64,000 nt of DNA from Caecibacter massiliensis. Lineage in GTDB: Bacteria > Bacillota > Negativicutes > Veillonellales > Megasphaeraceae. The stretch spans positions 186,001 through 250,000 of the forward strand of contig LT608311.1 in the NCBI GenBank assembly GCA_900095875.1, given 5' to 3'. Positions 27,153-52,214 of this stretch are shown piece after piece. Position numbers and translations under genes: made by a program. The first letter of the stretch is position 1; every line of letters starts with the position of its first letter. The notes below the pieces were generated by a model. The model saw nothing but the letters and a program-made list of their open reading frames with translations. It was not told where the DNA came from and searched no databases.

Positions 27153-27227
27153 TGGCAGGCACAGCTGGACTCGAACCAACACCAACGGTTTTGGAGACCG
27201 TCATGCTCCCGATTACATTATGCGCCC
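27153..27227 (-). tRNA. tRNA-Trp (anticodon CCA), prophage-encoded
   Basis: A 75-base cloverleaf on the minus strand: acceptor GGGCGCA with TGTGCCT, D stem ATG/CAT, anticodon stem ACGGT/ACCGT enclosing CTCCAAA, T stem GTTGG/CCAGC with loop TTCGAGT, and an encoded 3' GCCA. The anticodon reads UGG. It lies between the early regulator and the HNH gene and would be transcribed with the late genes. Confidence 0.92.
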
Positions 27228-38500: not shown

Positions 38501-38540
38501 GAAAAAGAAACTTTTACTACATTTTATTGCAGTAAAAGTT
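38501..38540 (-). terminator. Terminator of the XRE-ImmA operon
   Basis: AACTTTTACT and AGTAAAAGTT (38509-38518 and 38531-38540) make a perfect 10-bp stem; TTTCTTTTTC follows on the minus strand. The stem overlaps the stop codon of the ImmA-like gene. Confidence 0.72.
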
Positions 38541-39204
38541 AAAGTAGCTTGCATTCTTTAAGTCTAATCGCTACTGATTGTTTTGAAACGTCAAAGAAAT
38601 CTGCAAGAGTCCATATGGATTCGTTATTATTTCTGCCATAAGATATCCCTAAATACTCTGCAGCTTCAATAAAAGGTTCACGTGGCATCAATATTCTTGG
38701 AGCAATTCCAATTGCTTGGCATTCCATAATATTTTCATCATCACTCGCATAAGGTAAATCATTTACTTTACATTTACAGTATTTCGCATACCGCGGAAGT
38801 GTAAAATTTTGCATTTTATAATAATATCTATGTTTATACCAGTGAACACATTCGTGTGCTAGTGTGTTATTTCTACAGCCGATATTGGTTTTCTTGACGG
38901 CTTCAGGATCAATTAGCACTGTCTTTGCTTTAAAACTTTTCGTTTCGTATAACATTTCCTCCGGGTCATATATTTCTAAAAAGCCATCTGTAAAAATAGT
39001 CATACCATAGATTTCCAGCTCTTCCGAAATGCCCACATACTGAACATCAAGACCAAGTCCATTTTGCGCAATGTCTTCAATCGGCACCCTCATTGGTTTT
39101 TGTAATGCCTCTGGGTAAAATTCTCTTAAAAATTCGGTTGCAATTTTATCATAATCTTCTCGCGGAATATATGGAATCAATTTGCTTGCATTAAAATCTC
39201 TCAT
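38539..39204 (-). CDS. ImmA/IrrE-type metallopeptidase
   Basis: A 221-residue zinc peptidase with HECVH at residues 117-121 (TLAHECVHWYKH), the HExxH signature. ImmA proteins cleave the phage or ICE repressor encoded beside them to allow induction. It overlaps the repressor gene by four bases (ATGA), the usual pairing. The C-terminal 60 residues contain a SIWTLADFFDVSKQSVAIRL helix-turn-helix-like segment, a common addition. Confidence 0.92.
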   Translation of the reverse strand: MRDFNASKLIPYIPREDYDKIATEFLREFYPEALQKPMRVPIEDIAQNGLGLDVQYVGISEELEIYGMTIFTDGFLEIYDPEEMLYETKSFKAKTVLIDPEAVKKTNIGCRNNTLAHECVHWYKHRYYYKMQNFTLPRYAKYCKCKVNDLPYASDDENIMECQAIGIAPRILMPREPFIEAAEYLGISYGRNNNESIWTLADFFDVSKQSVAIRLKECKLL

Positions 39205-39578
39205 TTCCTATCCTTCCTTTCATCAATGATTTTATTAACTTCCTGCCAAAAATCGTCACCTAAATTTTGCTTTTTTGCACGACGAAGTGCAACACGCGCA
39301 TTAGGAAGAGATTCGTCCATAATATAATCCGGTAAATCAGGGGAAACCTGATTGCGATCCCGTCCAGCAAGATCAAACATTTCATCTCGCTCCTTCTCAT
39401 CGAGTTGTAAGGCTTGAGCTAAGGCCTCAAGGCCGTCTTTATCAGGAGGATTTCGTCTTCCCTTAATAATATCCGAAAGATATGTAACTGAAACACCCAT
39501 CTTTTCCGCAATCGGCTTTAATTTAATATCCTTTTCTAATCTTTTCCGCGCTATAAAAGAACCAAATTCACCCGCCAT
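39201..39578 (-). CDS. XRE-family repressor
   Basis: A 125-residue protein whose first 60 residues are a lambda-repressor-like helix-turn-helix (KPIAEKMGVSVTYLSDIIKG). The rest is helical and ends in a charged tail. Position next to ImmA marks it as the immunity repressor cut by that protease. It has a strong promoter with a palindrome over the transcription start, so it should repress itself. Confidence 0.92.
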   Translation of the reverse strand: MAGEFGSFIARKRLEKDIKLKPIAEKMGVSVTYLSDIIKGRRNPPDKDGLEALAQALQLDEKERDEMFDLAGRDRNQVSPDLPDYIMDESLPNARVALRRAKKQNLGDDFWQEVNKIIDERKDRK

Positions 39579-39596: not shown

Positions 39597-39649
39597 ATTA
39601 CGCTTATTTGCGTAATAATATTATACTCCTTTCATCTTATATATGTCAA
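39597..39649 (-). promoter_or_regulatory. Repressor promoter with palindromic operator
   Basis: Minus strand TTGACA (39649-39644), 18-base spacer, TATAAT (39625-39620). Directly downstream lies ATTACGC-TTATTT-GCGTAAT (39597-39616), a perfect palindrome placed over the expected transcription start, fitting autorepression. Confidence 0.85.
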
Positions 39650-39682
39650 TATGATTAATAGCATTATTTTTGATTAAGGGCA

Positions 39683-39711
39683 TTGCTAATTCAACTTAGC
39701 CATGCTATACT
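39683..39711 (+). promoter_or_regulatory. Promoter of the C5 methyltransferase gene
   Basis: TTGCTA at 39683-39688, 17-base spacer, TATACT at 39706-39711, 30 bases before the ATG. It carries none of the operator half-sites, so the methyltransferase may be expressed constantly while the nuclease operon is controlled. Confidence 0.8.
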
Positions 39712-39740
39712 ATGAACATGTTAAAAAGGAGTCTTTAGCA

Positions 39741-41195
39741 ATGTCACAACGAGGTGGAAAAAGGGATGGATCTGGTAGAACCCCCCTCCCTATAAACGAA
39801 AAAAAAATACCCAAAACAATTTATATAACACCTTCCCTCCAAGGAGATATAGATCAGTATGCTTTTGGTAAAAATTTCTCAGAAAAGTGTACCGATTTAA
39901 TAAGTTCCCAAATTGCCCGAAGAAAAAGAGGCAAAAATAAAACTGTAAAATTTATCGACCTTTTTGCTGGTCTGGGTGGTATAAGAATTGGATTTGAAAA
40001 TGCATTTCGAAAAAAAGGTTTTGATCCAATTTGTGTGTTTAGTAGTGAAATAAAGGACTATGCAGTAAAGGCCTATAAAAACTATTTTAATGATGACTAT
40101 GTCGCAGGAGACATTACTAAGATACCCGCCTCAGATATTGAAGATTTCGATTTCTTGCTCGCTGGATTTCCATGTCAACCATTTTCTGCTGCTGGATTAG
40201 GTCTAGGATTTGAAGATACTAGAGGAACACTTTTTTTTGAAATAGAACGAATCTTAAAAGAAAAACATCCATACGGTTTTCTTCTTGAAAATGTCGAAGG
40301 ACTTATTAACCACGATGATGGTAGGACTTTATCCATCATCGTGAACCACTTGAAGAAATTGAATTATTACGTTTCTTATAGACTAATTGACAGTCAGTTC
40401 TTTGGTCTCGCACAATCACGTAAGAGAGTTTATATTGTTGGCACCCGAGATGCCCATATCTCGCTTGATGGTTTTGAAGAACATACAGCCGTACTGGGAG
40501 ATATATTGGAACACGGACTTCCCACCGTTAATTCGGATTTCACACATAAATTATTCGCTCATTTTACCCCAGACCAGGTTATTGGTAAAGCAATCAAGGA
40601 TAAGCGTGGAGGAGCAGACAATATCCATAGTTGGGAGATTGGATTGAAAGGGAATACTACAGATGAACAAGCAAAATTCCTTAATTTACTACTACTTGAG
40701 CGTAGGAAACGAAAATGGGCGGCCGAAATTGGCATAGATTGGATGGATGGTATGCCGTTGACAGAAAAACAAATATCCACGTTTTATCCACGAAAAAATT
40801 TAAAGCAATTCCTCGACAATCTTGTGGACATGGGGTATTTAACGCTAGAATATCCACGTAAGAAAGAAAACAATCGTCGGGTTCCCGATAAAACGAAATC
40901 AAAAGGTTACAATATCGTAGCAGGTAGACTATCATTTGAATTCACAAAAATATTAGACCCCTCAGACCTCGCACCAACGCTTGTAGCTATGGATGTTTCT
41001 CACTTAGGCGTAATAGATAATGGTGGATTACGCAGGTTATCAATTCGTGAAGGGGAACGTCTTTGTGGATTTCCAGAAGACTACGATTTGTCCTTTCTCA
41101 AAGAGAGTGAAGCATTTGATCTACTAGGCAATACAGTCTGCATTCCAGTAATTACTGCTATTGCTGACCGTCTTGCAGAAGCATATGCAAATTAA
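39741..41195 (+). CDS. DNA (cytosine-5) methyltransferase of the restriction island
   Basis: A 484-residue C5 methyltransferase with all main motifs: FIDLFAGLGGIRIGFE (I), catalytic Cys145 in AGFPCQPFSAAGLG (IV), FLLENVEGL (VI), QSRKRVYIVGT (VIII), LRRLSIREGERLCGFPEDY (IX) and LGNTVCIPVITAIADRLAEA (X). The first 60 residues are a basic extension (GGKRDGSGRTPLP...) that may bind DNA like a ribbon-helix-helix. AAGGAG precedes the ATG at 39741; upstream in-frame codons contain the promoter. It faces the restriction operon across a terminator and should protect host DNA. Confidence 0.95.
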   Translation: MSQRGGKRDGSGRTPLPINEKKIPKTIYITPSLQGDIDQYAFGKNFSEKCTDLISSQIARRKRGKNKTVKFIDLFAGLGGIRIGFENAFRKKGFDPICVFSSEIKDYAVKAYKNYFNDDYVAGDITKIPASDIEDFDFLLAGFPCQPFSAAGLGLGFEDTRGTLFFEIERILKEKHPYGFLLENVEGLINHDDGRTLSIIVNHLKKLNYYVSYRLIDSQFFGLAQSRKRVYIVGTRDAHISLDGFEEHTAVLGDILEHGLPTVNSDFTHKLFAHFTPDQVIGKAIKDKRGGADNIHSWEIGLKGNTTDEQAKFLNLLLLERRKRKWAAEIGIDWMDGMPLTEKQISTFYPRKNLKQFLDNLVDMGYLTLEYPRKKENNRRVPDKTKSKGYNIVAGRLSFEFTKILDPSDLAPTLVAMDVSHLGVIDNGGLRRLSIREGERLCGFPEDYDLSFLKESEAFDLLGNTVCIPVITAIADRLAEAYAN

Positions 41196-41200
41196 TTATT

Positions 41201-41229
41201 AGCGGGTACAAATAAAGTACCCGCTTTTA
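41201..41229 (+). terminator. Terminator between methyltransferase and restriction operon
   Basis: AGCGGGTAC (41201-41209) and GTACCCGCT (41217-41225) make a perfect 9-bp stem with a 7-base loop and a T-run on the plus strand. It also overlaps the stop codon of the convergent NO VEIN gene. Confidence 0.88.
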
Positions 41230-42162
41230 TATTTTTTGAATACGATAAGAAGCTGTATTAACCATCCACTGGTCGTTGTTAAAAATAACTTCATATGGAT
41301 TATAAATATATTCCGGTAGATATCCAGGCTTTCCAATTTGTTCATAATCAACAAGACAAAGGATATATTTATCACCTTTTATTCTTGCTACATCGCTTTC
41401 ATTTTCTGACCAAAAAAATCGTTCTACCCCAAGATAGCATTTTACTTCAATAAATCGATCGTAATTCTGGCTATCTTCAGTCTTAAAAGAAACTAAATCA
41501 TATCCCGCCGTTACATCAAAATCTGATATTCGTTTAATCATTTCAGATTTTGATGGAAGCCTCTTTTTTTCTAATTTAAGGACAAACTCTTCTGCTTCTA
41601 ATCCTCTTTTACTCTGTTCTTCTTTCTTTCTCAGTAATTGTTCAAGTGTAAATTTTCTTCTTCTACTTCGTAGTTTTGAAGTCCAATCATCTTCATAATT
41701 CTCTGGAACGCTGATAACCCCATTCTCATCTTTATCTAGGGCGTTTGCAGAAATAAGAAAATTTCTAATAGCAGCATAAGCCAATGGAAAAGCTGACCTC
41801 TTAATTGTTAAATGCCCCTTCTCAGCATCAAAACCGGTAGCATCTTTATCAAAAATTCCATCTTCAATTAATTTATTTATTGTCAAAGTTATGAGTTTAT
41901 TTATTTTTTCATCTTTTTTGAGCCCTATCATGGCATTTAATGACTCGGCTGGGCTTACAAAGCCCCCTTCTACTTCTACTAAGCATAAATATTCTAAAAA
42001 TGCAATTGCGCCTGGGCAATTAATTGTTATTCCGTTTTCTAAGGCACATCTATTTCGAATTTCATCTCGGCTCACTCTTTCTTTTCCTTCAATGATGGAA
42101 ATCAAAAACAGTAAGCCGTCAATATTCCCTACTGAATTACACCTTTTTAGTTCTATAAACAT
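41227..42162 (-). CDS. NO VEIN (DUF3883) domain nuclease-like protein
   Basis: A 311-residue protein. Residues 1-130 are helical without known motif. Residues about 185-300 form a DUF3883 domain: Glu191 in RGLEAEEFVLKLE, Asp222 in AGYDLVSF, and Glu239-x-Lys241 in RFIEVKCYL, the metal-binding set of a PD-(D/E)XK nuclease, then FFWSENESDVARIKGDKYIL. DUF3883 is common next to helicases in restriction systems. It overlaps the helicase gene by 26 bases, so the two are likely made in equal amounts. Confidence 0.88.
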   Translation of the reverse strand: MFIELKRCNSVGNIDGLLFLISIIEGKERVSRDEIRNRCALENGITINCPGAIAFLEYLCLVEVEGGFVSPAESLNAMIGLKKDEKINKLITLTINKLIEDGIFDKDATGFDAEKGHLTIKRSAFPLAYAAIRNFLISANALDKDENGVISVPENYEDDWTSKLRSRRRKFTLEQLLRKKEEQSKRGLEAEEFVLKLEKKRLPSKSEMIKRISDFDVTAGYDLVSFKTEDSQNYDRFIEVKCYLGVERFFWSENESDVARIKGDKYILCLVDYEQIGKPGYLPEYIYNPYEVIFNNDQWMVNTASYRIQKI

Positions 42163-44095
42163 ACTCTTTAATCAAAGCCTTGATGTCTTCATCTCCAGTT
42201 TCCAATCCAACATTTTCAAATAATGGGATAGGCATACTTTCAATGATTTCCCTAAGCCTTGTCTCCTTTTCAATCAATCTACTATGGATTACTTCATCTA
42301 TTGAATCTTCTGAGAGCAGATAATAATAATTTGTTTCTGTTCCCGGTTTAAGGCCATAGCGGTGAATACGATCTTTTGACTGTATAAAATGAGCAGCATT
42401 GAAGCTCCGTTCCATATAAATTGCATTATGGCATGCCTTGTGAAGAGAAATTGATTCTGAAACAGCAAAAGGGTTTGCAATAATAACCTTAAAAGAAGAA
42501 TCTTTTTTATGAAATTCTGCGATAATTTGTTCTCTGGTATCTATCTCATTTTCATCTTCATCTCCAGTGGAAACCGGCGTTGCTCCATATAAAGTTTTGC
42601 ATGAAATTCCACTTTTTTGAAGATAGGCTTGAAAATCAAGTATGTTCTTAATATATATCGCCCATACGATGACCTTTTCACCTTTATTTATTATATTCTC
42701 AATTATTTCTTTAGCCTTTTCAAACTTAGGTGGTATTTCATCTCGTGAATACCGCAATATATCTGCAATTAATGAAGAATCTTCATTAACAGATTCTGGA
42801 TTAAAACAATCTATCGCCGCAAATTGCCTTAATGGTACACTTAATAAATTGGGATTAGTTGCCGCTTGCATTAGCCTTATTAGTCTAGCTTTGACAAGAT
42901 TCTGCCTGAACCAGTTATCTTTACTAGAAACTATATCATCCATATATTTTTTTTCAATAATGTCATAGATTTTACGTTGTATTGCTCCCATGGGAACTAT
43001 AACGGGAGGATGTTCTGTTGCCGGTGGTATTCCCAAATCACTTTTCTTAACCCTTATAAAAAAAGGTTCAATACAATGAAGCAAATTATCCACCCTGGAG
43101 TCAGATTCCGATTTACTCATATCTTTTAGTTGATAAACTTCATAAGGGATTATTTTTTTAGTAGGCCATATAAACTTATACAGGTTATATAAGTCTTCAA
43201 ATCCATTTGGTGCTGGGGTTCCTGTTAAAACAACCCTTGATGAGCAATACGGTGCTATATCAAGTACACTTGCAGCCATTATGCCACCATCCGTGTTCTT
43301 GATTTTGTGAGCCTCATCAAGCACTACCATTACTTTATTATTACGAAGGAAATAAATTAGTTCCTCCTTTAAAGAATTTACTGATGCGTATGATAATAAC
43401 GTTATTTTTGCTGGTTCAACAGAATACAAGTATTGTTTTTTATCTTGTATTGATACCTTTCCATTAAGTCTTTTTATAGTAGGCATCTGTCCAAAGCATT
43501 CTTTATATTCAAGTTCCCAAGGCCCAAACGCGCTTAAGGGGGAAATAATGAGTAACTTATCAACATATTTTTTTTCATCAGGAGGCAGATTAGATAGATA
43601 CGCGAAAGCACCGTAGACAACACTAGTTTTCCCCGCCCCTGGAGCGGAAAAATTGCATGAATTTTGAGAAAAGGCTAAATGGTATGCCGATAAAAGTTGC
43701 AGTTTATATAAACTTCTATTAGGCAAGTTTTTACATACTGAGTCAATGAACTCTTGAAACTCCTCTTTATCGCAATGGTTATCGCGAATAAGCCTAGCCT
43801 TTTCAGCAAATTCATCAAACTTTACTTCTTCTTTCTCATAATTATTAACCGCTTCAGACACTTTTTCAGAGTATTCCAAATTGGCTGATATATATCCACA
43901 AATTTTCTTAATACGATCAATTGTTTTATCTATATTATCCCCAACATTTATAACAAGACTTTGGCTTGTTCGCTGGAAATTAACTGCATCCTTCAGAAAC
44001 CGTGCCGCCCTTCTGTTATGGAAGATTAAATCAATATCTCCAGTAACAATCAATTCGGTATCATTTTCGCTTGATTCAAGACGAAGTTTCTTCAT
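42137..44095 (-). CDS. SNF2-family helicase of the restriction island
   Basis: A 652-residue superfamily 2 translocase: Walker A APGAGKT at 151-157, DEAH box at 260-263 (VVLDEAHKIKN), motif III LTGTPAPNGFEDL, and a full C-terminal half with KVIVWAIYIKNI, NPFAVSESISLHKACHNAIY and RIHRYGLKPGTETNYYYLLS. The first 140 residues are a separate helical domain. It is longer than and clearly different from the prophage SNF2 gene at 27764. A translocase in a type II-like cluster suggests ATP-dependent scanning before cleavage. Confidence 0.93.
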   Translation of the reverse strand: MKKLRLESSENDTELIVTGDIDLIFHNRRAARFLKDAVNFQRTSQSLVINVGDNIDKTIDRIKKICGYISANLEYSEKVSEAVNNYEKEEVKFDEFAEKARLIRDNHCDKEEFQEFIDSVCKNLPNRSLYKLQLLSAYHLAFSQNSCNFSAPGAGKTSVVYGAFAYLSNLPPDEKKYVDKLLIISPLSAFGPWELEYKECFGQMPTIKRLNGKVSIQDKKQYLYSVEPAKITLLSYASVNSLKEELIYFLRNNKVMVVLDEAHKIKNTDGGIMAASVLDIAPYCSSRVVLTGTPAPNGFEDLYNLYKFIWPTKKIIPYEVYQLKDMSKSESDSRVDNLLHCIEPFFIRVKKSDLGIPPATEHPPVIVPMGAIQRKIYDIIEKKYMDDIVSSKDNWFRQNLVKARLIRLMQAATNPNLLSVPLRQFAAIDCFNPESVNEDSSLIADILRYSRDEIPPKFEKAKEIIENIINKGEKVIVWAIYIKNILDFQAYLQKSGISCKTLYGATPVSTGDEDENEIDTREQIIAEFHKKDSSFKVIIANPFAVSESISLHKACHNAIYMERSFNAAHFIQSKDRIHRYGLKPGTETNYYYLLSEDSIDEVIHSRLIEKETRLREIIESMPIPLFENVGLETGDEDIKALIKEYVYRTKKV

Positions 44096-44109
44096 TTAAC
44101 ATACTTCCT

Positions 44110-45396
44110 TTACAAACCAAGGATATCCTTGAACTTATTAACATAATCCTGTAAGGTCTGAACACATCCACGCACTTGCTTATCCGTTGAGAAGCTCGGC
44201 TGATTCACATCAACTACTTCCAGCGCTTGGCAAGCTTTAATAAGTTGCTGCAAAGGCTTAGCAGCGTTAGCGTGGTTTTCAAGTAAATCTTTACTCTGAA
44301 TATAGTTGTCATCAAGAGCTTCTTCAACTTTCTGCCGCCACTGCTGATCCCTGGCTTTTAAAGCACGGCTAAGGTCTGGCGGATTCTTAGCCATAATGTC
44401 TTCAACCGTTTCTTCATCGACATTTTCTGTTAATTTAAAATGCTTATCTCTAAAAGGTTCCCATACTTCCTTTTTAGCAAAGAAGCTAGAAGCAGGATTC
44501 TTGGGAGTTGGTGCAGATATAATATCACGGAATAAAGTCTGTTCAAAGTTAGCACGGATATAATCAAAAGCTATGAGCTTTAAGTCGCTAACATCCGCTT
44601 CAGGATCATAATCCCACATGGAAGCTACCCCGGCCTTATACTTTCTTAAGGCGGAATCCAATTTCAAAAAAGAGTCTTCATTTTTATCAAGTTGTGTATA
44701 CATCCCAGAATATTCGTATTCGTCTAAGTATTCATCCATTAGTTCCAAAGCGGAAAGCATTGTACGTATTTCCCCAGGTTTGCAATCCATCATATTGGCA
44801 ATATCATCATCTGTAAATCCTGCGTCTTTAAGGTCTTTTGCTTTCAAGTACTTTTCAATAGGATTATAATCTACCTTAGCGTCTTCACCCATCTGATAGG
44901 TTGTTTCAAGTGCTAAGATTTCTTTTTTATCTGCATCATCAGGGAGAATGATTGCAATAAAAAATCGGCAGTGCCCTTTTTCTGTATAAGGAATGGATTC
45001 ATCTTCCATTATATTATTTAGAAGACTTGCTCGACGGTTACCATCAATAATGATACCATCAGATGTAACAATACCATGTTTCTGTTGATGTTCTTTCAGA
45101 AGTCGCATTTTGGTTTTCTTATTCGCATCTGGTTTCGAATCCCAAAGAAACTTCTCTATAACCTTTTTGTCAGCAGGGTCTTCCGGATTAAGTTGATGAT
45201 GTTGTCTTTCATACGATTTGACAACACTCCCAATTCTCCCATTATACGGGTTATATACGAGATATTCTAACGGAATTGCATATGCGTTCAAAGTAATGAT
45301 ACTGCCATGGTACGTAATAGGAATGCCCGTACGGCAGGCCAAATCTGGATGGTCAGTAAATTCTTTAAGCTTAGCTTTTCTTTCTTCTGCATTCAT
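44110..45396 (-). CDS. ParB/Srx-like protein of the restriction island
   Basis: A 428-residue protein. Residues about 25-150 resemble a ParB-like domain: a conserved PLEYLVYNPYNGRI segment and GIIIDGNRRASLLNNIM, in which DGNRR replaces the GHRR motif of true ParB. Residues about 155-240 hold a helix-turn-helix (KDAGFTDDDIANMMDCKPGE); the remaining 190 residues are helical. It is not near a parA gene, so chromosome partition is unlikely. ParB-like domains of this kind act as nucleases or CTP/ATP switches in defence islands. Ribosome site GGAGG fits the ATG at 45396. Confidence 0.8.
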   Translation of the reverse strand: MNAEERKAKLKEFTDHPDLACRTGIPITYHGSIITLNAYAIPLEYLVYNPYNGRIGSVVKSYERQHHQLNPEDPADKKVIEKFLWDSKPDANKKTKMRLLKEHQQKHGIVTSDGIIIDGNRRASLLNNIMEDESIPYTEKGHCRFFIAIILPDDADKKEILALETTYQMGEDAKVDYNPIEKYLKAKDLKDAGFTDDDIANMMDCKPGEIRTMLSALELMDEYLDEYEYSGMYTQLDKNEDSFLKLDSALRKYKAGVASMWDYDPEADVSDLKLIAFDYIRANFEQTLFRDIISAPTPKNPASSFFAKKEVWEPFRDKHFKLTENVDEETVEDIMAKNPPDLSRALKARDQQWRQKVEEALDDNYIQSKDLLENHANAAKPLQQLIKACQALEVVDVNQPSFSTDKQVRGCVQTLQDYVNKFKDILGL

Positions 45397-45413
45397 AACG
45401 ATATACCTCCAAA

Positions 45414-46334
45414 TCAAAATTCATCAATGTGTGCATCAATAATATCTTCTAATAGCCCCATGTTTTGAAAGTTCAGGACATAATCGGAACATCTATGAAT
45501 TTCTTTAAGATCAGCCTGTCTTCCAATCCAGCCGGCCCCATCCAAGAAGTTCACATAAATTATATTCCTTCCTGCTGCCCGTTCTTTTTTTATCGTCTCC
45601 ACAGTTTTTCTAGCAGCGGTTTTTTTGCTTCCTTGGCTACTCGATGTCGTTACACTATATGAAACGTCCAGAATCAATCTTGGTTTAGTTGGTGATTCCA
45701 ATACGAAGCTAACTGCTCGATCCAAAATAGGAACCCTCACATTGCTTTGATATTCCAGCCCATATTTCGAGCAAACTCTTTTCAGTTCCTTTTCTATGTC
45801 AGCTAAAATACAATCACCAACGCCATTGCTATACCTACCTTCCAGTCCACGTTTAACAAGTTGTCGAACATTATTGACATCCTGAAGTTTTAGCAAGGTT
45901 GTTTTATCCATCGACAAATTTTCAAGGTAGAAAGCAGGAATGCAAGCCTTCATTTTCTCATCATTTTTACCGTCCCAAAGAAGGTTAAGGATGCTTTCCA
46001 TCATTGCAGGGCTTTCCATCATTGCCGTTCTGATTTTACTGAGCCCCCACTCCGTAGCAAAATGAAAACCTCGATCCTTTCGAATCATAGATACCATCCT
46101 TTTAAAACGTTCAACAGATATCTCTGCTACAGATGTAAGATTATCGAGAGAATCCTTGTGGTCGATAATGTACCGCTTAAGCGATTCTTTATCCCTAATG
46201 GTACGCAAGCCCATGGAAATACTTGCCGTTTTTGCCTGAACTTCTTTTTCAATTTGGGCTTCATATGCTGGATTAATGTAAAACATCGTCGTAGAGTTAA
46301 ATAATTCCTCATAAGACATTTTTTTTGCGCTCAT
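45414..46334 (-). CDS. Putative type II restriction endonuclease (DpnII-like fold)
   Basis: A 306-residue protein. The C-terminal third has RLILDVSYSVTTSSSQGSKK, a metal-binding strand with downstream Lys, then IIYVNFLDGAGWIGRQADLK, a segment found in DpnII-like and related type II endonucleases. The N-terminal 200 residues are helical and likely bind the target. It is the first gene of the four-gene minus operon, directly behind a promoter. The recognition sequence cannot be read from the protein. Confidence 0.8.
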   Translation of the reverse strand: MSAKKMSYEELFNSTTMFYINPAYEAQIEKEVQAKTASISMGLRTIRDKESLKRYIIDHKDSLDNLTSVAEISVERFKRMVSMIRKDRGFHFATEWGLSKIRTAMMESPAMMESILNLLWDGKNDEKMKACIPAFYLENLSMDKTTLLKLQDVNNVRQLVKRGLEGRYSNGVGDCILADIEKELKRVCSKYGLEYQSNVRVPILDRAVSFVLESPTKPRLILDVSYSVTTSSSQGSKKTAARKTVETIKKERAAGRNIIYVNFLDGAGWIGRQADLKEIHRCSDYVLNFQNMGLLEDIIDAHIDEF

Positions 46335-46370
46335 TTAGGGCACCGCCTTTCTAAGATTTGATTTAACACC

Positions 46371-46399
46371 AGTATATCACCCAAGTTTGTTAAAGGCAA
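46371..46399 (-). promoter_or_regulatory. Promoter of the restriction operon
   Basis: Minus strand TTGCCT (46399-46394), 17-base spacer, TATACT (46376-46371), 37 bases upstream of the endonuclease start. Confidence 0.78.
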
Positions 46400-46474
46400 T
46401 AGAAAAATTACACTTTTTTGCGTATTTTTTAGAGTTCCATATTTTCTTATTTTAATCGCTGTAAGGACAATGAA

Positions 46475-46497
46475 ATTACGCTTATACGCTTATGTGC
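46475..46497. promoter_or_regulatory. Three tandem operator-like half-sites
   Basis: ATTACGC, TTATACGC and TTATGTGC in direct succession, 76-98 bases upstream of the restriction promoter. Same half-site type as the palindromes at 38473 and 39597. Confidence 0.6.
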
Positions 46498-46544
46498 TTA
46501 CTTATAAGTATCATATCGAATATATTGAATTCCCCGGCTATTGA

Positions 46545-47012
46545 TTACTTATATTCATCTTCGCATTCGTAAATATCATATTCGTTCAACATGTTATCAA
46601 AAATAACCTCTTCTATCACGCGTATACATTCATCAAGTTTTTTGTCAATTTCACTCCCCCAGAAATGAATTACATTCCACCCTAAAAATAATAATTGTTT
46701 ATCAACTTCATTGTCTCGCTGCATGTTTCTTTCTATTTTTTTTATCCAGAACTCTGGATTACGTCCTTTCTCAAGTCTTGGTTTCAAAACCGTATACCAA
46801 TCTTTCCCATGGAAAAAATCGCTGTCACAAAAAATAACAATTTTCTGTTTTGTCATTACGATATCCGGACTTCCTGGTAAGTCTTTGTAGTTTTTGCGGT
46901 ATCTATATCCTCTATGCCAGAGCGCTTTGCGTAAAGTTAACTCAATTGATGTATCCTTCGAGCGAATATGTGACATGCACTTTTTACATTGTTCTGGTGT
47001 CAATCTATCCAT
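46545..47012 (-). CDS. vsr: Very short patch repair (Vsr-like) endonuclease
   Basis: A 155-residue Vsr homologue of normal length. Conserved parts: CMSHIRSKDTSIELTLRKAL, HRGYRYRKNYKDLPGSPDIV with Asp50, KIVIFCDSDFFHGKDW with His68 and a variant DSD in place of DGC, and the WIKKIERNMQRDNEVDKQLL tail. Vsr nicks beside T:G mismatches that arise when 5-methylcytosine deaminates, so it fits the C5 methyltransferase of this island. It has its own extended -10 promoter. Confidence 0.93.
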   Translation of the reverse strand: MDRLTPEQCKKCMSHIRSKDTSIELTLRKALWHRGYRYRKNYKDLPGSPDIVMTKQKIVIFCDSDFFHGKDWYTVLKPRLEKGRNPEFWIKKIERNMQRDNEVDKQLLFLGWNVIHFWGSEIDKKLDECIRVIEEVIFDNMLNEYDIYECEDEYK

Positions 47013-47137
47013 ACCCTTATACTTCCTTCGCAGATTCTTAGGAAACTATTTACGCCGATTTAGATTAAAATGTTAAGTACATAAAATAATCTATCTTCAT
47101 TTCCCTTTTTATCTTATCTTTGTTTTATATAGTCACT

Positions 47138-47146
47138 ATTATATCA
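47138..47146 (-). promoter_or_regulatory. Extended -10 promoter for vsr
   Basis: Minus strand TGATATAAT with a perfect TATAAT, 126 bases upstream of the vsr start. No good -35 is visible. Confidence 0.5.
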
Positions 47147-47214
47147 TGATACATAGTTTATTACACAGCGAATGACATTTAGTTAGCCCCTAAAAAATAT
47201 ATATATCAAAATGC

Positions 47215-47262
47215 AAAAAACGACGGCCCTGTGAATGCGTAGGTGCAGACACAGAAGCCGTC
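47215..47262 (-). terminator. Terminator after the SEL1-like gene
   Basis: Minus strand GACGGC and GCCGTC with an inner CTGTG/CACAG pairing, loop about 18 bases, then six T. It closes the transcript from 47952. Confidence 0.83.
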
Positions 47263-47277
47263 CCATTATTGTTTATC

Positions 47278-47952
47278 TCATTTAATTATTCTTTCGAAAA
47301 AATCCCTGTTTAGGAATGCTTCACCGTCTTCATTGAATCGTACCGTTACGCTTTCACCTTTCATCGCCAGGACGTTCATCAAGGCTGATGCCCTGAGTCG
47401 GCCCTTGCACCAGTCCTTAAGTGTCTGGTGTATATCGATAATGATTGTCTGGTCTATTTCCGGGATGGATACCGTTACATCCAGTGCCCGTGCGTCAACT
47501 TCGTTGCTAAAATATTCCAAGCCGTGCTGGAACGGCCCACTTGCACTTTTCCTTTCATACCCGTCAACTCCCACAATATAGCCACGGTAATGCTCATCAT
47601 TGCAACAGGCTTCGAGGTGGAAATCATCGAAATTACATATTTTGTGCGCATGCAGTTCCGCCAGCTGCCTTTCATACTCTGCGCTCTTTTCTACGGACTT
47701 CTCCACGCCGATTCCATGCCGGTATATGTACGACAGGTTCTCGATGGCGTCCACGCTATCCAGATCAGCGGCCTTTTCATACCATGCTATAGACTTTTCC
47801 GGGTCTTTGCCATAGTACATCATGCCCAACATGCACATTGCTTCCGTGTTGCCATTGCGAGCTGACTTCTCGTACAGTTCAATAGCTTCCTGCGTCCTGC
47901 CTTCCAAGTCCAAGAGCCATGCACGGTCTAAGATAGAATCTTGCTTAATCAT
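47278..47952 (-). CDS. SEL1-like repeat protein
   Basis: A 224-residue protein. Residues about 5-85 hold two to three TPR/SEL1 repeats (EGRTQEAIELYEKSARNGNT, EAMCMLGMMYYGKDPEKSIA, YRHGIGVEKSVEKSAEYER), a scaffold for protein contacts. The rest is a globular part of unknown family. No signal peptide is visible, so it acts in the cytoplasm. GGAG precedes the ATG at 47952. Its position beside the island suggests cargo, but the base composition is close to the host. Confidence 0.8.
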   Translation of the reverse strand: MIKQDSILDRAWLLDLEGRTQEAIELYEKSARNGNTEAMCMLGMMYYGKDPEKSIAWYEKAADLDSVDAIENLSYIYRHGIGVEKSVEKSAEYERQLAELHAHKICNFDDFHLEACCNDEHYRGYIVGVDGYERKSASGPFQHGLEYFSNEVDARALDVTVSIPEIDQTIIIDIHQTLKDWCKGRLRASALMNVLAMKGESVTVRFNEDGEAFLNRDFFERIIK

Positions 47953-48066
47953 AAGTTGCTCCTTTCCATTTAAAATCACTCGATTACACATCTTCTTGTA
48001 TTGTAACATGGAAATTATGCAATTTATGAAATTCTAATCAAAGATTTATCATTTTGTTATATTTTA

Positions 48067-48999
48067 TCAGTTGTTACCATCCCTAGCTATCTTCTTTAGG
48101 ATTACGGCTTCTTTCATGAACCAGTCATAGTATGCCGTATAATTCTTGTCATCAAAATCTTTCTCCAATTTCCGGGATACGAGCATCCTTGCATCCTTTT
48201 CCCCTTCCGACCATTCAATGGATTGACCTAATTGACTTTCTAATTCGGAAGCCCTGTCCTTCAATCCGTCGTAAAGGTCTCTCCGTTTGGCAAAGATATA
48301 CAGTCCGGCAGTAGCTCTTCTCCGGGATGTATTGATCGTAAATTCAATTACAACCGATGAAATGCCTATGCTCAAATTATACCAGTTCATTGCAAATGCT
48401 TTCCTACGGCTAAAGGACTTCCGGAAATCTTTGTCGTCCTTGAATGCATAATCAGAGAACTGCTGCCAGAACGAAAGCTGGAATTTCTTCAACGGCGTCA
48501 ACGTTTCTGCCGCCTTGACCGTCTTCGCCCACTCGTTCGGCCTTTCTACGATGTTGAATTTAGGTGCCGGAAGTGAGTCACCAATACGCCACAGTTCGAT
48601 TTCGATGAGGAAGATACCGATGTTGTCATCAGTATGCTGGTTCAGCCAGGCAACAGCCTGCTTATGCTCATCCCTTGCACGTTTAACAATCCAGATAATG
48701 ACTTCTGCATCCTTGCCGGCGGCATAGGTAATGATTTTACCCAGATGATCGTGGTCCGTATCTTCTAACTGGTTTTCGATGATGACGCCCCTGGAACTGC
48801 CGCTTTCACGAGCAAATATATCGACGCTAAAATCACCAACAGCAGATTCCGTCTCTTCCAGTTCCAAATCAAGACCTACGGTTTCACCCAGGGCAGACAG
48901 ATTCTCTTCACGGGCAAGCCACTTAGAGAAATCATATTCTTCATGTGGCCATATAGTCCTCAAATCTTCAATCCGTTCCATGCGGCCTAATTTTTCCAT
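48067..48999 (-). CDS. DUF4268-type protein with PD-(D/E)XK-like N-terminus
   Basis: A 310-residue protein. Residues about 45-115 look like a nuclease core (AVGDFSVDIFARESGSSRGV then IIENQLEDTDHDHLGKIITY): Asp and Glu-x-Gln in place of the usual E-x-K, the form seen in DUF4268-linked proteins. The C-terminal 140 residues (KKFQLSFWQQFSDYAF...) are the DUF4268 domain. Such genes occur alone or in defence islands. Its start lies 65 bases beyond one copy of the tRNA-like RNA element. Confidence 0.82.
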   Translation of the reverse strand: MEKLGRMERIEDLRTIWPHEEYDFSKWLAREENLSALGETVGLDLELEETESAVGDFSVDIFARESGSSRGVIIENQLEDTDHDHLGKIITYAAGKDAEVIIWIVKRARDEHKQAVAWLNQHTDDNIGIFLIEIELWRIGDSLPAPKFNIVERPNEWAKTVKAAETLTPLKKFQLSFWQQFSDYAFKDDKDFRKSFSRRKAFAMNWYNLSIGISSVVIEFTINTSRRRATAGLYIFAKRRDLYDGLKDRASELESQLGQSIEWSEGEKDARMLVSRKLEKDFDDKNYTAYYDWFMKEAVILKKIARDGNN

Positions 49000-49063
49000 T
49001 TATTTTCACTTCTTTTCTTTAAAGTTCTGTGCTATAGCTTTATTATAGCATACCCCTGTCTAC

Positions 49064-49215
49064 AAACCAAAAAGCAGGGCCGCATCAACGGTCCTGCTTT
49101 TACAGGCGCTCGGAGTCGCACCGGGGTCTCCTCTTTCGAGGCGTAATCCTTCTAATACCACTACCTGTCACTTATAGTATCCCATACGGCCACATACTTT
49201 TCAAGACTACGAATA
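49064..49215 (-). ncRNA. Structured tRNA-like RNA element, copy 1, with terminator
   Basis: Read on the minus strand it begins at the stop codon of the 49216 gene. A closing helix pairs 49164-49168 with 49102-49106 (ACAGG/CCTGT) around three hairpins: GTA/TAC, CCTC-gaaa-GAGG and CGG/CCG with a 7-base loop. A terminator AGCAGGACCG...CGGCCCTGCT (49098-49073) with T-run follows. Nearly the same 150-base element recurs at 50374-50523. Confidence 0.72.
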
Positions 49216-50010
49216 TTACTCTTCGCCTGCAAAATTTTCCAGAATCCATCGTAACCCTTTTTCTACACTACCGTTGCACCATTTTTCGTATGGAACGATA
49301 ATCGCACTCCTTCCCCCGCCGTAGACAAGTATGCCGTTCCTGCGGTTGATCCAGAAGGTCCTGCAATCGAACCAGTCGTAGGTAAAAGTTTCCTTTTTGC
49401 ATAGCCCCATGATAGCCAGTGTATGTGTCGAACCGCCAGTATATCCAGTAGAAAGGCCGAGGATAGGCGTCTCTTTCACTCCATACCCCATCAGAATTTG
49501 ATGGATTGTCAGGTATATATCGGCGTCTTTTTTGTGCTGACAGCCCGTGCAGTTGCATTTTGATGGCCAGCCACCGACCGCAGCGAGAGTTGCCCGTTCC
49601 AGGAGGCCGATGGGATTTGCCCCGGCTTCGAGTTCCTTGGACAAGATAATCTTCGGTCCGGGATAATCACCATCTACTCTGCCGGAGCTGGTTGCAAGCA
49701 AGCTTAGTTCTTTCTCCTCCTTGACCTGCTTACAATTGTACGGATGGATGCAGACTTTCCGGCCATAGCCATACATGCCACCGATGGAAAGCGGCAGGAC
49801 ATCGATGCCACAGCGCTTATAAAAAGCCTGCAGGATATGGTTGTCTAAGAGCCACATGATTTTCATGGATTGAGCTGCACAAATCTCATCCCACATCTCA
49901 GACCTTTCCCAACAGCGAAGGGCAAGGTTCGTCCGGGCCAGTGCCCTGGCAAAGTCAGCGTTCCGTTCGCGCATGCGAATATATTGGTCAAAGGTCATTT
50001 TCTGTTCCAT
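49216..50010 (-). CDS. Hypothetical protein, cysteine-containing
   Basis: A 264-residue protein I cannot assign. The N-terminal half is helical (FDQYIRMRERNADFARALAR) and the second half holds WPSKCNCTGCQHKKDADIYL, a possible metal site with three Cys and a His, followed by a glycine-rich stretch (GLSTGYTGGSTHTLAIMGLC). No membrane segment or signal peptide. The start at 50010 (MEQKMTF) is preferred. Ends exactly where copy 1 of the RNA element begins. Confidence 0.65.
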   Translation of the reverse strand: MEQKMTFDQYIRMRERNADFARALARTNLALRCWERSEMWDEICAAQSMKIMWLLDNHILQAFYKRCGIDVLPLSIGGMYGYGRKVCIHPYNCKQVKEEKELSLLATSSGRVDGDYPGPKIILSKELEAGANPIGLLERATLAAVGGWPSKCNCTGCQHKKDADIYLTIHQILMGYGVKETPILGLSTGYTGGSTHTLAIMGLCKKETFTYDWFDCRTFWINRRNGILVYGGGRSAIIVPYEKWCNGSVEKGLRWILENFAGEE

Positions 50011-50057
50011 GGGCACCCCCCTAACTTTAAGGCTACATATACTACTCGATGAAACTT

Positions 50058-50309
50058 CTACGTCTCCACTATGACATCTTCTACGTCTTCAAAAATATCT
50101 TTCATGGTCTTTCCGTCAAATAGTGGCGCATTCATGAGCTCTTCTTTCGTATCAAAATCATGGTATGATTCAGGAATCACTTTGTCCTTATTCCCGCTAT
50201 CCTCATACGCTTCAATCATCCACCAGCCGGAAGCAATATAATAGGTTCCGTGATAATGAAAATGTACGGCCTGAACCATGTCGACGTGCATAGCCTCAAT
50301 GAGATTCAT
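50058..50309 (-). CDS. Small hypothetical protein
   Basis: An 83-residue acidic protein, GGAGG before the ATG at 50309. The first half is aromatic and histidine-rich (QAVHFHYHGTYYIASGWWMI), the second acidic. It looks like a small enzyme-fold or immunity-type protein, but no family is recognised. It lies downstream of copy 2 of the RNA element, 65 bases past its terminator. Confidence 0.6.
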   Translation of the reverse strand: MNLIEAMHVDMVQAVHFHYHGTYYIASGWWMIEAYEDSGNKDKVIPESYHDFDTKEELMNAPLFDGKTMKDIFEDVEDVIVET

Positions 50310-50373
50310 TTTTTCCTCCAATCTTCAGTAGTCCTTTCATCCTATACGTTGATTATATCACGCTGGCTTCTAT

Positions 50374-50523
50374 AAACCAAAAAGCAGGGCCGCATCAACG
50401 GTCCTGCTTAGCAAGCGCACGGATTTCAACCGTGGCCTCCTCCATCAAGGCGTACTCACCCTATACGACTACTTGCCACTAATATTATCTCATTCGGCCA
50501 CATGCTTTTCAAGACTACGAATA
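50374..50523 (-). ncRNA. Structured tRNA-like RNA element, copy 2, with terminator
   Basis: Closing helix GCAAG/CTTGC (50476-50472 with 50415-50411) encloses hairpins CGTA/TACG, GCCTT-7 bases-GAGGC and CACGG-TTGAAAT-CCGTG, the last like a T arm. Terminator arms lie at 50408-50399 and 50392-50383. Compared with copy 1 the helices keep pairing while their bases differ. It is a cloverleaf-like RNA but lacks a conserved position-33 U and a usual acceptor length, so it is not a normal tRNA. Confidence 0.72.
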
Positions 50524-50748
50524 TTACCTTCGTAGTAAAGGCTTCTTTTTGAGTGTTTGTTTTCCCCTGATACCCCGCCTCTGACAGCAGTTCTGTTGAC
50601 CCTCTTGGACTGCTTTTAGAACCGTATCATCAACCTGCACACAAGCGTTCGTCGGTATGTTCTCGTAAAATGAAAAATAGGGATTCCCACCGTTAAGCCA
50701 TTCTTGATGGCAAAACGGCGAGAATCCCTTATTTATCGGGGTTTTCAA
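50524..50748 (-). CDS. Doubtful 74-codon frame at the 3' end of the rRNA methyltransferase gene
   Basis: Starts with TTG overlapping the stop of the methyltransferase gene by four bases and encodes KTPINKGFSPFCHQEWLNGG. The sequence resembles repetitive non-coding DNA more than a protein, and no ribosome site is visible. Possibly a leftover of an inserted element. It ends where copy 2 of the RNA element begins, which may be the real feature. Confidence 0.25.
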   Translation of the reverse strand: MKTPINKGFSPFCHQEWLNGGNPYFSFYENIPTNACVQVDDTVLKAVQEGQQNCCQRRGIRGKQTLKKKPLLRR

Positions 50749-52139
50749 TCCTCAACTAGGTCGTTGCGTATCAGCAGAGCCACGCACTCGACGTGGTGGG
50801 TCCGCGGGAACATGTCTACAGGCTGTACTTTAGCGGTATGGTAGCCGTGCTGGTCCAGGTAGGCCAGGTCGCGGGCCAGGGTAGCCGGGTTGCACGAGAC
50901 GTAGACGACGCGTTCCGGTCTGCTCTGGGCGATGGCTTTGAGGACCGGTTCACCGCAGCCGGCCCGGGGCGGGTCGAGGACGATGATGTCGGGACGGATG
51001 CCTTCCCGGATGAGTTCCGGCAGTTTATAGACGGCGTCACCGAGGATGAATTCGGCATTTTTCACGTGATTGTCCCGGGCGTTGCGGACGGCGTCGCGGA
51101 TGGCCGGGGCGACGATTTCGATGCCGTAGACCTGTCTGGCTTTCCGGGCCAGGAACAGGGTAATCGTCCCGGTGCCGCAGTACACGTCGGCTACGGTTTC
51201 ATTTCCCTTCAGGTTGGCAAAGTCCAGGGCCTGTTCGTAAAGCCGCTGGGCCTGTTCGCTGTTGACCTGGAAAAAGGACTGGGCTGAAATGTGGAAGGTC
51301 AGCGGCCCGATAGAATCGTGAATCGTATCACTGCCGTATATGGTCCGGGTCTTTGATCCCAGTATGACGTTGGTATGGCGCTTGTTGACGTTCTGGACGA
51401 CGCTGGTCAGACCGGGGATATCCCGGCGCAGGCGCTGGACCAAATCTTTCATGTGTGGCACCATATCGCCGGCCGTGACCAGGCAGACCATGATTTCACC
51501 CGTATGGACGCCGACGCGTCCCATGATATGGCGGACAATGCCCGTCCGGGCATCTTCGTCGTAGGCCGGTATCTTGAAGTCTTTCATCCATTGGCGGACG
51601 ACACGGATGATGGCGTTGTTGTCTTCCTTCTGGATGGCACAGTCGGCCACGTCGATGACTTTGTGGGTAGAAGCGGCAAAGCAGCCGATGGCGACTTTTC
51701 CCCTGCCGGCTGCCGCGACAGGAAACTGCATTTTATTGCGGTAGTGCCAGGGAGACGGCGCGCCCAGTACGGGAAGTACGGGGACATGGCTGAGATGGCC
51801 GATACGGACGATGGCGTCTTCTACCTGCTGGCGTTTTTCCTTTAGTTCTCCTTCATAACTCATGTGCTGCAGCTGACAGCCGCCACACTGATCATAGACG
51901 GGACAGTGCGGCTTGATACGGTCCGGTGAAGCCGTGACGATTCCGGTCAGTTCCGCTATGGCATAGTTCTTTTTGATCAGCTGGATCCGTGCCCGGACGG
52001 TTTCTCCCGGCAGCGCCCGGGGTATGAATATGGTGAAATTCTCATATCGCCCGACACCTTCCCCGCTGGTGCCCAGCCGGAGAACGGGGACTTCGTAGAT
52101 TTTCCCTTTTTGTACGGGAATCGCATGTTTTTCCTTCAT
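50745..52139 (-). CDS. rlmD: 23S rRNA (uracil-5-)-methyltransferase, RlmD/RumA type
   Basis: A 464-residue enzyme with an N-terminal TRAM domain (residues about 1-65, EVPVLRLGTSGEGVGRYENF), a four-Cys iron-sulphur site (CPVYDQCGGCQLQHM and a later Cys) and a SAM-binding methyltransferase half with ADVYCGTGTITLFLA, IVLDPPRAGCGEPVLKAI and the catalytic YVSCNPATLARDL. It places 5-methyluridine in 23S rRNA. Which of the RlmC/RlmD sites it uses cannot be told from sequence. Confidence 0.9.
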   Translation of the reverse strand: MKEKHAIPVQKGKIYEVPVLRLGTSGEGVGRYENFTIFIPRALPGETVRARIQLIKKNYAIAELTGIVTASPDRIKPHCPVYDQCGGCQLQHMSYEGELKEKRQQVEDAIVRIGHLSHVPVLPVLGAPSPWHYRNKMQFPVAAAGRGKVAIGCFAASTHKVIDVADCAIQKEDNNAIIRVVRQWMKDFKIPAYDEDARTGIVRHIMGRVGVHTGEIMVCLVTAGDMVPHMKDLVQRLRRDIPGLTSVVQNVNKRHTNVILGSKTRTIYGSDTIHDSIGPLTFHISAQSFFQVNSEQAQRLYEQALDFANLKGNETVADVYCGTGTITLFLARKARQVYGIEIVAPAIRDAVRNARDNHVKNAEFILGDAVYKLPELIREGIRPDIIVLDPPRAGCGEPVLKAIAQSRPERVVYVSCNPATLARDLAYLDQHGYHTAKVQPVDMFPRTHHVECVALLIRNDLVED

Positions 52140-52163
52140 ATAGATCCTTTCCCGGATATACGA

Positions 52164-52212
52164 AAGCCTCTCCGCAGGTAACGGTATGCTCTATCCTTGC
52201 CGGAGAGGCTTT
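52164..52212 (-). terminator. Hairpin between pdp and rlmD genes
   Basis: Minus strand AAGCCTCTCCG (52212 side) pairs with CGGAGAGGCTT (52164 side), 11 bp, loop about 27 bases, T-run short. It likely reduces read-through from the nucleoside operon. Confidence 0.6.
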
Positions 52213-52214
52213 GG

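Follow-up and report, generated by a model that had tools for sequence, protein, structure and literature searches.

A prophage cassette of Caecibacter massiliensis is a probable member of a widespread ATP-dependent restriction-modification system that couples a ParB-like protein to an SNF2 ATPase and a NOV_C nuclease

A prophage of Caecibacter massiliensis carries a cassette of eight linked genes that includes a DNA methyltransferase, a ParB-like protein, an SNF2 ATPase, and a NOV_C nuclease. The DNA analyzed is a stretch of 64,000 nucleotides (contig LT608311.1, positions 186,001 to 250,000), called the window here, and the list of open reading frames (ORFs) places the cassette at 38.5-47.0 kb of it. 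Genes for Vsr, a restriction-endonuclease-fold protein (RE), the ParB-like protein, SNF2, and the NOV_C-domain protein (NOV) lie on the minus strand, and beyond the plus-strand C5-cytosine methyltransferase (MTase) gene are those of a helix-turn-helix (HTH) regulator and an M78 metallopeptidase. An initial annotation had named the first six of these genes, and the ORF list, family profiles, and, for the ParB-like protein, the predicted fold bear it out. The six genes and a hairpin between two of them are as follows, in window coordinates.

39702..41195, plus strand: C5-cytosine DNA methyltransferase (PF00145 E 2.8e-73, TIGR00675 E 1.3e-97)
41201-41225, no strand assigned: terminator-like hairpin, 9 pairs and a T-rich tail, between MTase and NOV
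41227..42162, minus strand: NOV_C-domain nuclease (PF13020 E 6e-13, over cut-off; predicted active site D222, E239, K241)
42137..44095, minus strand: SNF2-family ATPase/translocase (PF00176 E 2.9e-21, PF00271 E 1.1e-6)
44110..45396, minus strand: ParB-like protein, 428 aa, with a predicted nucleotide-pocket domain, HTH, and long helical C-terminus
45414..46334, minus strand: RE-fold protein, BstEII/BsoBI/BanI/DpnII-like (PF24447 E 3.2e-8, PF04556 E 7.6e-7, over cut-off)
46545..47012, minus strand: Vsr mismatch endonuclease, accessory (TIGR00632 E 1.2e-36)

Four of the minus-strand genes are closely packed and the MTase gene faces them across a terminator-like hairpin, both as first annotated. 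The gaps are 17 bases between the RE and ParB-like genes and 14 between the ParB-like and SNF2 genes, the SNF2 and NOV genes overlap by 26 bases, and the Vsr gene lies 210 bases upstream of the RE gene. MTase and NOV are convergent, with the hairpin between the two stops. Terminator-like sites are about as frequent as in shuffled sequence (8 observed, 7.4 expected), so the argument rests on the placement of this hairpin and not on the number of such sites. The single promoter proposed for the minus-strand genes is unproven, as promoter-like matches number 47 compared to 38.2 (sd 6.8) in shuffles. The MTase may start at ATG 39702 or at ATG 39741 (484 aa, as in several relatives), and the ParB-like gene at ATG 45396, with an in-frame TTG at 45417 also present. 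Pfam and NCBIfam matches over cut-off are DNA_methylase, NOV_C, SNF2-rel_dom with Helicase_C, RE_BanI/DpnII, and Vsr.

The core of the gene set consists of MTase, ParB-like, SNF2, and NOV genes. A genome scan with a seven-row alignment of the ParB-like protein found 88 stretches encoding a relative, of which 80 were kept, and a viral scan gave 13 loci. ORFs were called and labeled with profiles built from the window proteins, and removal of seven duplicates (L005, L020-L022, L110, L114, and L116) from 97 rows left 90 loci. SNF2 is found in 86 of these, NOV in 80, RE in 34, Vsr in 23, M78 in 19, and HTH in 15, and the C5 MTase lies within a few ORFs of the ParB-like gene in 87. With ParB as the only seed, all four core genes occur together in 79 of the 90 loci; the initial annotation had made its proposal depend on such co-occurrence in other genomes. 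Among the 11 loci short of four genes, five end at a contig edge (L030, L039, L062, L078, and L119), one has its ParB-like gene broken off (L104), and five have a MutH-type nuclease and no NOV (L094, L095, L096, L102, and L120), L102 also being without SNF2. In L095 (12378-15138) and L096 (12369-15066), a MutH/Sau3AI-type nuclease and another C5 MTase stand in the place of NOV directly behind SNF2.

The coupling of the ParB-like and SNF2 genes is constant. They are on the same strand with a gap of at most 30 bases in all 86 loci that have both, and SNF2 and NOV overlap or lie within 60 bases of each other in 77 of 80. NOV_C domains are rare: of 149 genomes of the phylum, 20 have one (the window's genome among them), which makes chance adjacency unlikely. 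In the reverse direction, a 19-row SNF2 alignment used as query at E 1e-60 matched 8 of 398 genomes, and a ParB-like gene is adjacent or overlapping in all eight. These are among the nine genomes of the same 398 that the ParB profile matches. Three of them (G000, G227, and G273) have the C5 core, and the other five are distant. By their record names, the loci found with the ParB seed belong to Bacillota, Bacteroidota, Chloroflexota, Pseudomonadota, Campylobacterota, Omnitrophota, and a number of Patescibacteria-type lineages, and many are metagenome-assembled genomes. Streptococcus phage Javan191 and the viral contigs L005 and L007 have RE-ParB-SNF2-NOV with the MTase opposite, followed by HTH-M78, at about 60-87% identity.

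The ParB-like protein is recognized by its fold and by profile comparison, because the family libraries gave no ParB match. There is no ParB-family match in Pfam, NCBIfam, PADLOC, or PHROGs (no ParBc or TIGR00180 at E 0.1), and the TIGR00180 matches of this genome, four in all, lie elsewhere. The AlphaFold2 model, made from a 78-row alignment, has a predicted local distance difference test score (pLDDT) of 91.6 and a predicted template modeling score of 0.84. Foldseek ranks 1-23 are all ParB, KorB, Noc, or Spo0J, with E from 7e-4 to 0.1 and rank 1 alone below 0.001. Structure alignment gives Z 10.1 for KorB (200 residues, root-mean-square deviation (rmsd) 4.3) and Z 10.0 for Noc, while rows outside the ParB/Srx fold reach at most 5.4. 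The model thus combines a ParB/Srx N-terminal fold with an HTH and resembles the CTP-gated clamps KorB, Noc, and ParB. In sequence, hhalign against 25 canonical ParB proteins of the phylum gives E 4.4e-5 (single comparison) at 69% probability, with Boxes I-III and the HTH in register; against solved structures the best match of the profile is only E 0.026.

The same hhalign alignment shows departures from the canonical boxes. Box I (NPxQPR) is NPYNGR, Box II (GERR) is DGNRRA, and Box III (ENLQR..NPIEEA) is LETTYQ..DYNPIEKY. Asn replaces both the Gln of NPxQPR (N52) and the Glu of GERR (N120), and these two residues are invariant in 78 rows. For Caulobacter crescentus ParB, the sections of PMC8367383 available propose Q58 (P-motif 1) and E102 (P-motif 2) for CTP hydrolysis and describe E102A as clamp-locked; judging from the motifs, N52 and N120 probably occupy these positions. 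ParB folds can bind CTP, ATP, or GTP (PMC12704722, in part), so the nucleotide of the ParB-like protein cannot be named.

NOV is a safer candidate for the cutting enzyme than RE because its D-ExK motif is intact while that of RE is not recognizable. In NOV, D222, E239, and K241 are each kept in 74 of 75 sequences, as expected of a PD-(D/E)XK site, and in SNF2 the Walker A K156 and the DEAH box are kept in 83 of 83. NOV has no match among solved structures at E 0.1. The RE model (pLDDT 91.6) aligns with BstEII at Z 13.6 (252 residues, rmsd 6.4) and BsoBI at Z 11.0 (248 residues, rmsd 5.4), and folds missing from these VIA-align lists are not thereby excluded; sequence searches of solved structures gave E 0.057 and 0.16 at best (alone or as a profile). 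T229, T230, and Q234 of RE are conserved in 32 of 32 sequences, and the acidic positions vary (D205 in 19, D223 in 26). None of the 32 has Lys at position 225 of D223-x-225, so a catalytic motif is not recognizable, though an atypical site is possible. RE is therefore ruled out as a certain cutter for want of a recognizable site, and may be either an atypical nuclease or a lost nuclease serving as a site reader. The initial annotation inferred a multi-step ATP-dependent system with two nuclease-like proteins. A translocase, a ParB-type switch, and one nuclease are supported, but the second nuclease is doubtful.

RE is an addition by one clade and not part of the core. It is present in 34 of 90 loci, and in the SNF2 tree it occurs within one clade only. 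In that tree of 82 proteins, the label of the partner restriction endonuclease changes 6 times (45 none, 31 BstEII-like, 5 MutH, 1 BglII) and the BstEII-like group changes twice; the sole RE-less row in the RE clade, L113, is on a contig that begins immediately before ParB. MTase length class changes 5 times, Vsr 17 times, and phylum 15 times. The label "none" means no RE-profile match and no known MutH or BglII gene, the flanks having been only partly searched for other restriction endonucleases; L061, with a split SNF2, was too short for the tree. Sequence identities correlate at 0.94 for ParB-SNF2, 0.93 for MTase-RE, and 0.75 for MTase-ParB. By these correlations and the tree changes, the unit that is inherited is ParB-SNF2(-NOV), and the MTase is exchanged, either alone or together with a restriction endonuclease. 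The six genes first annotated are not a fixed unit, since RE (34 of 90) and Vsr (23 of 90) are optional.

In many loci the four genes have no close same-strand neighbor, or Vsr only. Among the 46 four-gene loci without a labeled partner restriction endonuclease, 14 have no same-strand ORF of at least 90 aa within 150 bases of either end; 11 of the other 32 have Vsr only, 15 another ORF or a split SNF2, and 6 a contig edge. The module also survives a change of MTase chemistry, as L026 (7159-12106) and L027 (6589-11938) have an N6/N4 MTase followed by ParB-like, SNF2, and NOV_C genes, with MTase and NOV over Pfam cut-offs. These two belong to the distant loci L023 and L025-L029, which are outside the 90-locus count, L029 also being outside the 398 genomes. 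L025 (8255-14979) has ParB-SNF2, a C5 MTase, MutH, and Vsr, and L029 (8464-13626) has ParB-SNF2-C5 MTase. In L029 the SNF2 protein has a PLD domain (38.7 bits, over cut-off), and the PLD match in L025 is weaker and below cut-off. L028 (1112-7295) has ParB-SNF2 with a NaeI-type restriction endonuclease (PF09126 E 6e-117), a C5 MTase, and Vsr. ParB and SNF2 are adjacent in L023, and the next large ORF is an SMC-like ATPase gene. On Enterococcus faecalis plasmid NZ_CP098027.1 (L010, 6941-10017), which is typed as mobilizable, a distant ParB-like gene overlaps a DEAD/DEAH helicase gene; of 71 plasmid records that match, 52 are from Enterococcus.

The flanks of the RE-less loci contain other defense genes. 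In 45 such loci, 128 flanking ORFs match 110 PADLOC families at E 1e-10, and the matches listed include AriA, MADS (mad2, mad3, mad8), AbiE, AbiL, DRT, PbeA, MzaA, SoFic, and type II/IV enzymes; these ORFs include the partner MutH genes of L087 and L094. A control of 112 ORFs from 14 arbitrary stretches matches 99 families, of which the 25 listed are mostly Cas genes and a type IIG enzyme. The control stretches were drawn from 118 listed, 6 overlapping ones being excluded by hand, and their taxa differ from those of the RE-less set. In Enterococcus sp. 669A (L064, 14771-16324), the system is followed directly by a GmrSD-type gene. In L051 (13268-14455) an AspBHI-type restriction endonuclease (PF18062 and Mrr_cat), presumably modification-dependent, lies directly behind the four-gene operon.

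The cassette probably represents, on a prophage, a widespread ATP-dependent restriction-modification system that is apparently undescribed and that combines a DNA MTase (C5 here) with a ParB-like/SNF2/NOV module whose genes are translationally coupled. The anatomy of the system, that is, its gene set, gene order, coupling, spread, predicted folds, and residue conservation, is strongly supported. The steps of the mechanism, defense as its purpose, and the order of events are inferred. The MTase would mark self DNA. The ParB-like protein, as a nucleoside triphosphate-gated DNA clamp, would load on unmarked DNA, helped here by the RE-fold protein as a site reader. The clamp would recruit SNF2, a double-stranded DNA translocase, and translocation would bring the NOV PD-(D/E)XK nuclease to cut. 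Vsr would repair T:G mismatches that arise from deamination of 5-methylcytosine. In CapH/CapP regulators the protease cuts the repressor upon DNA damage; HTH and M78 would control the MTase/HTH divergent promoter, perhaps in the same way. A further-reaching proposal, which we put forward tentatively, is that these loci form a novel restriction class in which a ParB-type nucleotide clamp acts as the gate and the chemistry of the MTase does not matter (C5 in most loci, N6/N4 in two). The clamp, which has invariant Asn at both presumed hydrolysis positions and so may stay closed on DNA for a long time, would load on unmarked DNA, slide off its entry site, and license SNF2 to deliver NOV, and in the window's clade the RE fold would have lost catalysis and become a sequence reader.

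Several observations weigh against this interpretation. The sample of 90 loci depends on the ParB seed, and near-duplicates such as L039 and L111 remain in it. Sequence similarity to canonical ParB is marginal, the hhalign probability being 0.3% against one ParB and 69% against 25. Both of the positions proposed for CTP hydrolysis are Asn, so gating may differ from that of ParB. Support for the idea that the ParB-like protein carries the specificity is inconsistent: among pairs with a swapped MTase, identity in the HTH drops from 0.75 to 0.60 in one bin of SNF2 identity (7 pairs) but not in the other (0.59 and 0.60, 75 pairs). Some loci counted as partner-free have a neighboring nuclease, MutH in L061 and the AspBHI-type methyl-dependent enzyme in L051. 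The comparison of flanks is qualitative, and it is suggestive at best of defense islands, as the family counts (110 and 99) do not separate the two sets.

An ordinary type II pair is a rival reading of the cassette. The MTase and RE would then form the system, with Vsr, and ParB, SNF2, and NOV would be accessory proteins that degrade DNA after the RE cut. A cognate DNA MTase is present, as in type II systems (PF00145/TIGR00675), its identity follows that of RE (r 0.93), same-strand MTase and RE genes are adjacent in 14 of 16 cases, and other loci have other restriction endonucleases near the MTase (MutH-like, BglII-like, AspBHI-like). However, 25 of the 46 loci without a labeled restriction endonuclease have no same-strand neighbor, or Vsr only, within 150 bases of the four genes. 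The canonical Lys and constant acidic positions are missing from RE, while the NOV site is intact, and RE is restricted to a single clade. An RE-driven system is thus rather unlikely.

The cassette sits next to rumA and close to one prophage end, since phage genes (tape measure, portal, terminase, primase-helicase, and DNA polymerase) are found at 4.6-37 kb and matches outside the window's own genome start at about 50.77 kb. The latter come from a comparison of window positions 46400-52500 with 20 genomes, the exceptions being a match at the DUF4268 gene (in G023) and one of 98 bases (in G002). A RumA-type RNA uracil methyltransferase gene (PF05958 and TRAM) occupies 50745-52139. In L046 a RumA-type gene also adjoins RE, and a streptococcal prophage integrated at rum is mentioned in the text of PMC4260502 available. 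A 57-kb IMG/VR record has RE to M78 at 100% identity (ParB 99.8%) and ends at RE. The cassette has 34-39% GC compared to about 53% in its surroundings, in agreement with the AT-rich block first described, but the AT-rich stretch (about 37-49 kb) is wider than six genes and includes the HTH and M78 genes, which were omitted. The earlier view that the block was acquired as a unit fits its position on a prophage, but not the exchange of MTases between loci.

Location on a prophage could also mean that the genes serve the phage itself, in superinfection exclusion, packaging, or replication control, with the MTase protecting phage DNA or regulating genes. Javan191 is a phage record, 13 loci come from the viral scan, and prophages benefit by excluding rivals. 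However, RE-less copies are found on long genome contigs, including the complete genome or chromosome records of L076 (AP018533.1) and L106 (CP058707.1), and their flanks, which were not searched for phage genes, hold other defense families. A role confined to phage lifestyle is quite improbable, and a restriction-modification system carried by the prophage is preferred.

The HTH and M78 genes are conserved with the cassette in its clade. Profile matches show the same pair as in CapH/CapP regulators, and the features at this end of the cassette are the following.

38539..39204, minus strand: M78 / ImmA-IrrE-like metallopeptidase, CapP-like (PF06114 E 1.8e-8; capP E 4.2e-9)
39201..39578, minus strand: HTH regulator, CapH-like (PF01381 (HTH_3) E 1.7e-9; weak capH match, E 0.0025)
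39597..39616, no strand assigned: inverted repeat with 7-base arms and a 6-base center, candidate operator of the HTH protein
39620..39649, minus strand: promoter-like site before HTH (12/12 consensus, 18-base spacer; consensus match only)

HTH and MTase are divergent neighbors in 18 of 19 rows, or 14 of 15 after removal of the duplicates L005, L020, L110, and L114, and M78 adjoins HTH on the same strand in 18 of 19 rows. The divergent layout is kept where the unit occupies the opposite end of the operon (L043, L044, and L049). In the exception, L117, HTH-M78 lies behind NOV, and L118 has no HTH-M78. This near-constant head-to-head layout rules out that the two are random phage genes. Two 14-base direct repeats, 19 bases apart at 39652-39684 upstream of the MTase, are possible regulatory sites. 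A hidden nuclease in the C-terminal extension of the MTase in RE-less loci was considered and rejected: two examples match Pfam DNA_methylase alone, and there is no D-ExK among the positions conserved at 85% or more in 43 sequences, of which 15 extensions were displayed in full.

Other genes in the window include a second possible defense gene. The DUF4268 protein at 48067-48999 (minus strand), in the same AT-rich block, matches the PADLOC candidate PDC-S11 (E 1.3e-112), and a Sel1-repeat protein is encoded between it and the cassette at 47278-48009 (minus strand). Within the prophage region there is a tRNA-Trp(CCA) at 27153-27227 (minus strand). Two adjacent phage genes at 24594-25874 and 22955-24607 (minus strand) are unrelated to the cassette; one matches DNA-methyltransferase and ParB-like families (phrog_498 E 5e-192, phrog_620 E 1.3e-46), and for the other, the matches include a DNA-methyltransferase family (phrog_116 E 1.2e-78).

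If the interpretation is correct, the ParB fold would have a new role in restriction-modification operons, where it is always paired with an SNF2 motor and nearly always with NOV. This would be a new way of linking self/non-self recognition to ATP-driven cutting, and it may explain some "orphan" MTases without an obvious restriction endonuclease. Research on chromosome-segregation clamps is usually separate from that on restriction enzymes. No system of ParB, SNF2, NOV, and MTase is described in the literature searched, which did not cover subscription journals or REBASE, and prior notice is possible. SNF2 is mentioned nowhere in the main text of a survey of the ParB fold from 2025 (PMC12704722).

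No PADLOC system matches the window genes, in keeping with the initial annotation, which found no fit to DISARM, BREX, Druantia, or simple type II sets. It is very improbable that the cassette is a divergent member of DISARM, BREX, Zorya, Dnd, or the MORC-type systems, for although SNF2 matches ZorD (E 4.2e-27) and DrmD (1.6e-10) and the MTase matches DrmMII and DruM, no other defining subunit is shown for the ten window proteins scanned and equivalog cut-offs are missed widely (ZorD 55.7 bits, cut-off 1500). Filing under DISARM, BREX, Zorya, or Druantia was rejected on the same ground. Among these ten proteins no DrmB match is shown and DrmA appears only as a weak match of SNF2 (8.4e-6); for BREX, PglZ, BrxC, and PglX are not shown and the sole match is that of SNF2 to BrxH (1.1e-5), with the best 25 matches seen for MTase and SNF2. 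The ZorA/ZorB motor of Zorya is likewise not shown. The ten proteins also have no HsdS or Mod match of type I/III systems, and the window MTase is C5 and not N6/N4. The MORC/paraMORC operons (Iyer et al. 2008) are similar in combining a cytosine MTase, SWI2/SNF2, Vsr, and restriction-endonuclease-fold nucleases in one operon, and their NTPase is proposed to loop the DNA that separates recognition sites from cleavage sites, according to the portion of PMC2292703 available. In contrast to their GHKL/MORC NTPase, the cassette has a ParB-fold protein in that slot and NOV_C as nuclease, and the ten window proteins have no GHKL-type Pfam match at E 0.1.

Other restriction-modification systems share parts of the cassette. 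The DUF3883 domain of SNF2-DUF3883 operons is presumably the same as NOV_C. Those operons couple SNF2 to a NOV_C-type restriction endonuclease domain as the cassette does, but as a fusion with a HEPN-AAA partner, whereas the cassette has separate genes and a ParB partner (PMC3710099, in part). SpyI/LlaJI-type systems share the C5 MTase, two restriction subunits of which one is an NTPase, and a streptococcal prophage setting; as described in the available text of PMC4260502, their subunits are AAA-domain and LlaJI-type proteins instead of SNF2, ParB, and NOV, which rules out SpyI of phage Phi1207.3 as the same system. Type II systems with a C5 MTase, a BstEII/BanI/DpnII-like restriction endonuclease, and Vsr share the MTase, the RE fold, and Vsr with the cassette. 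Unlike them, the cassette has the ParB-SNF2-NOV module, and its RE is dispensable across the family and has an unrecognizable motif. With the ParB/Noc/KorB clamps, the ParB-like protein shares the predicted fold, alignable positions of Boxes I-III, and an HTH behind the nucleotide domain. It differs from them in that it sits in a restriction-modification operon, has Asn at both proposed hydrolysis positions, and possesses its own long helical C-terminus.

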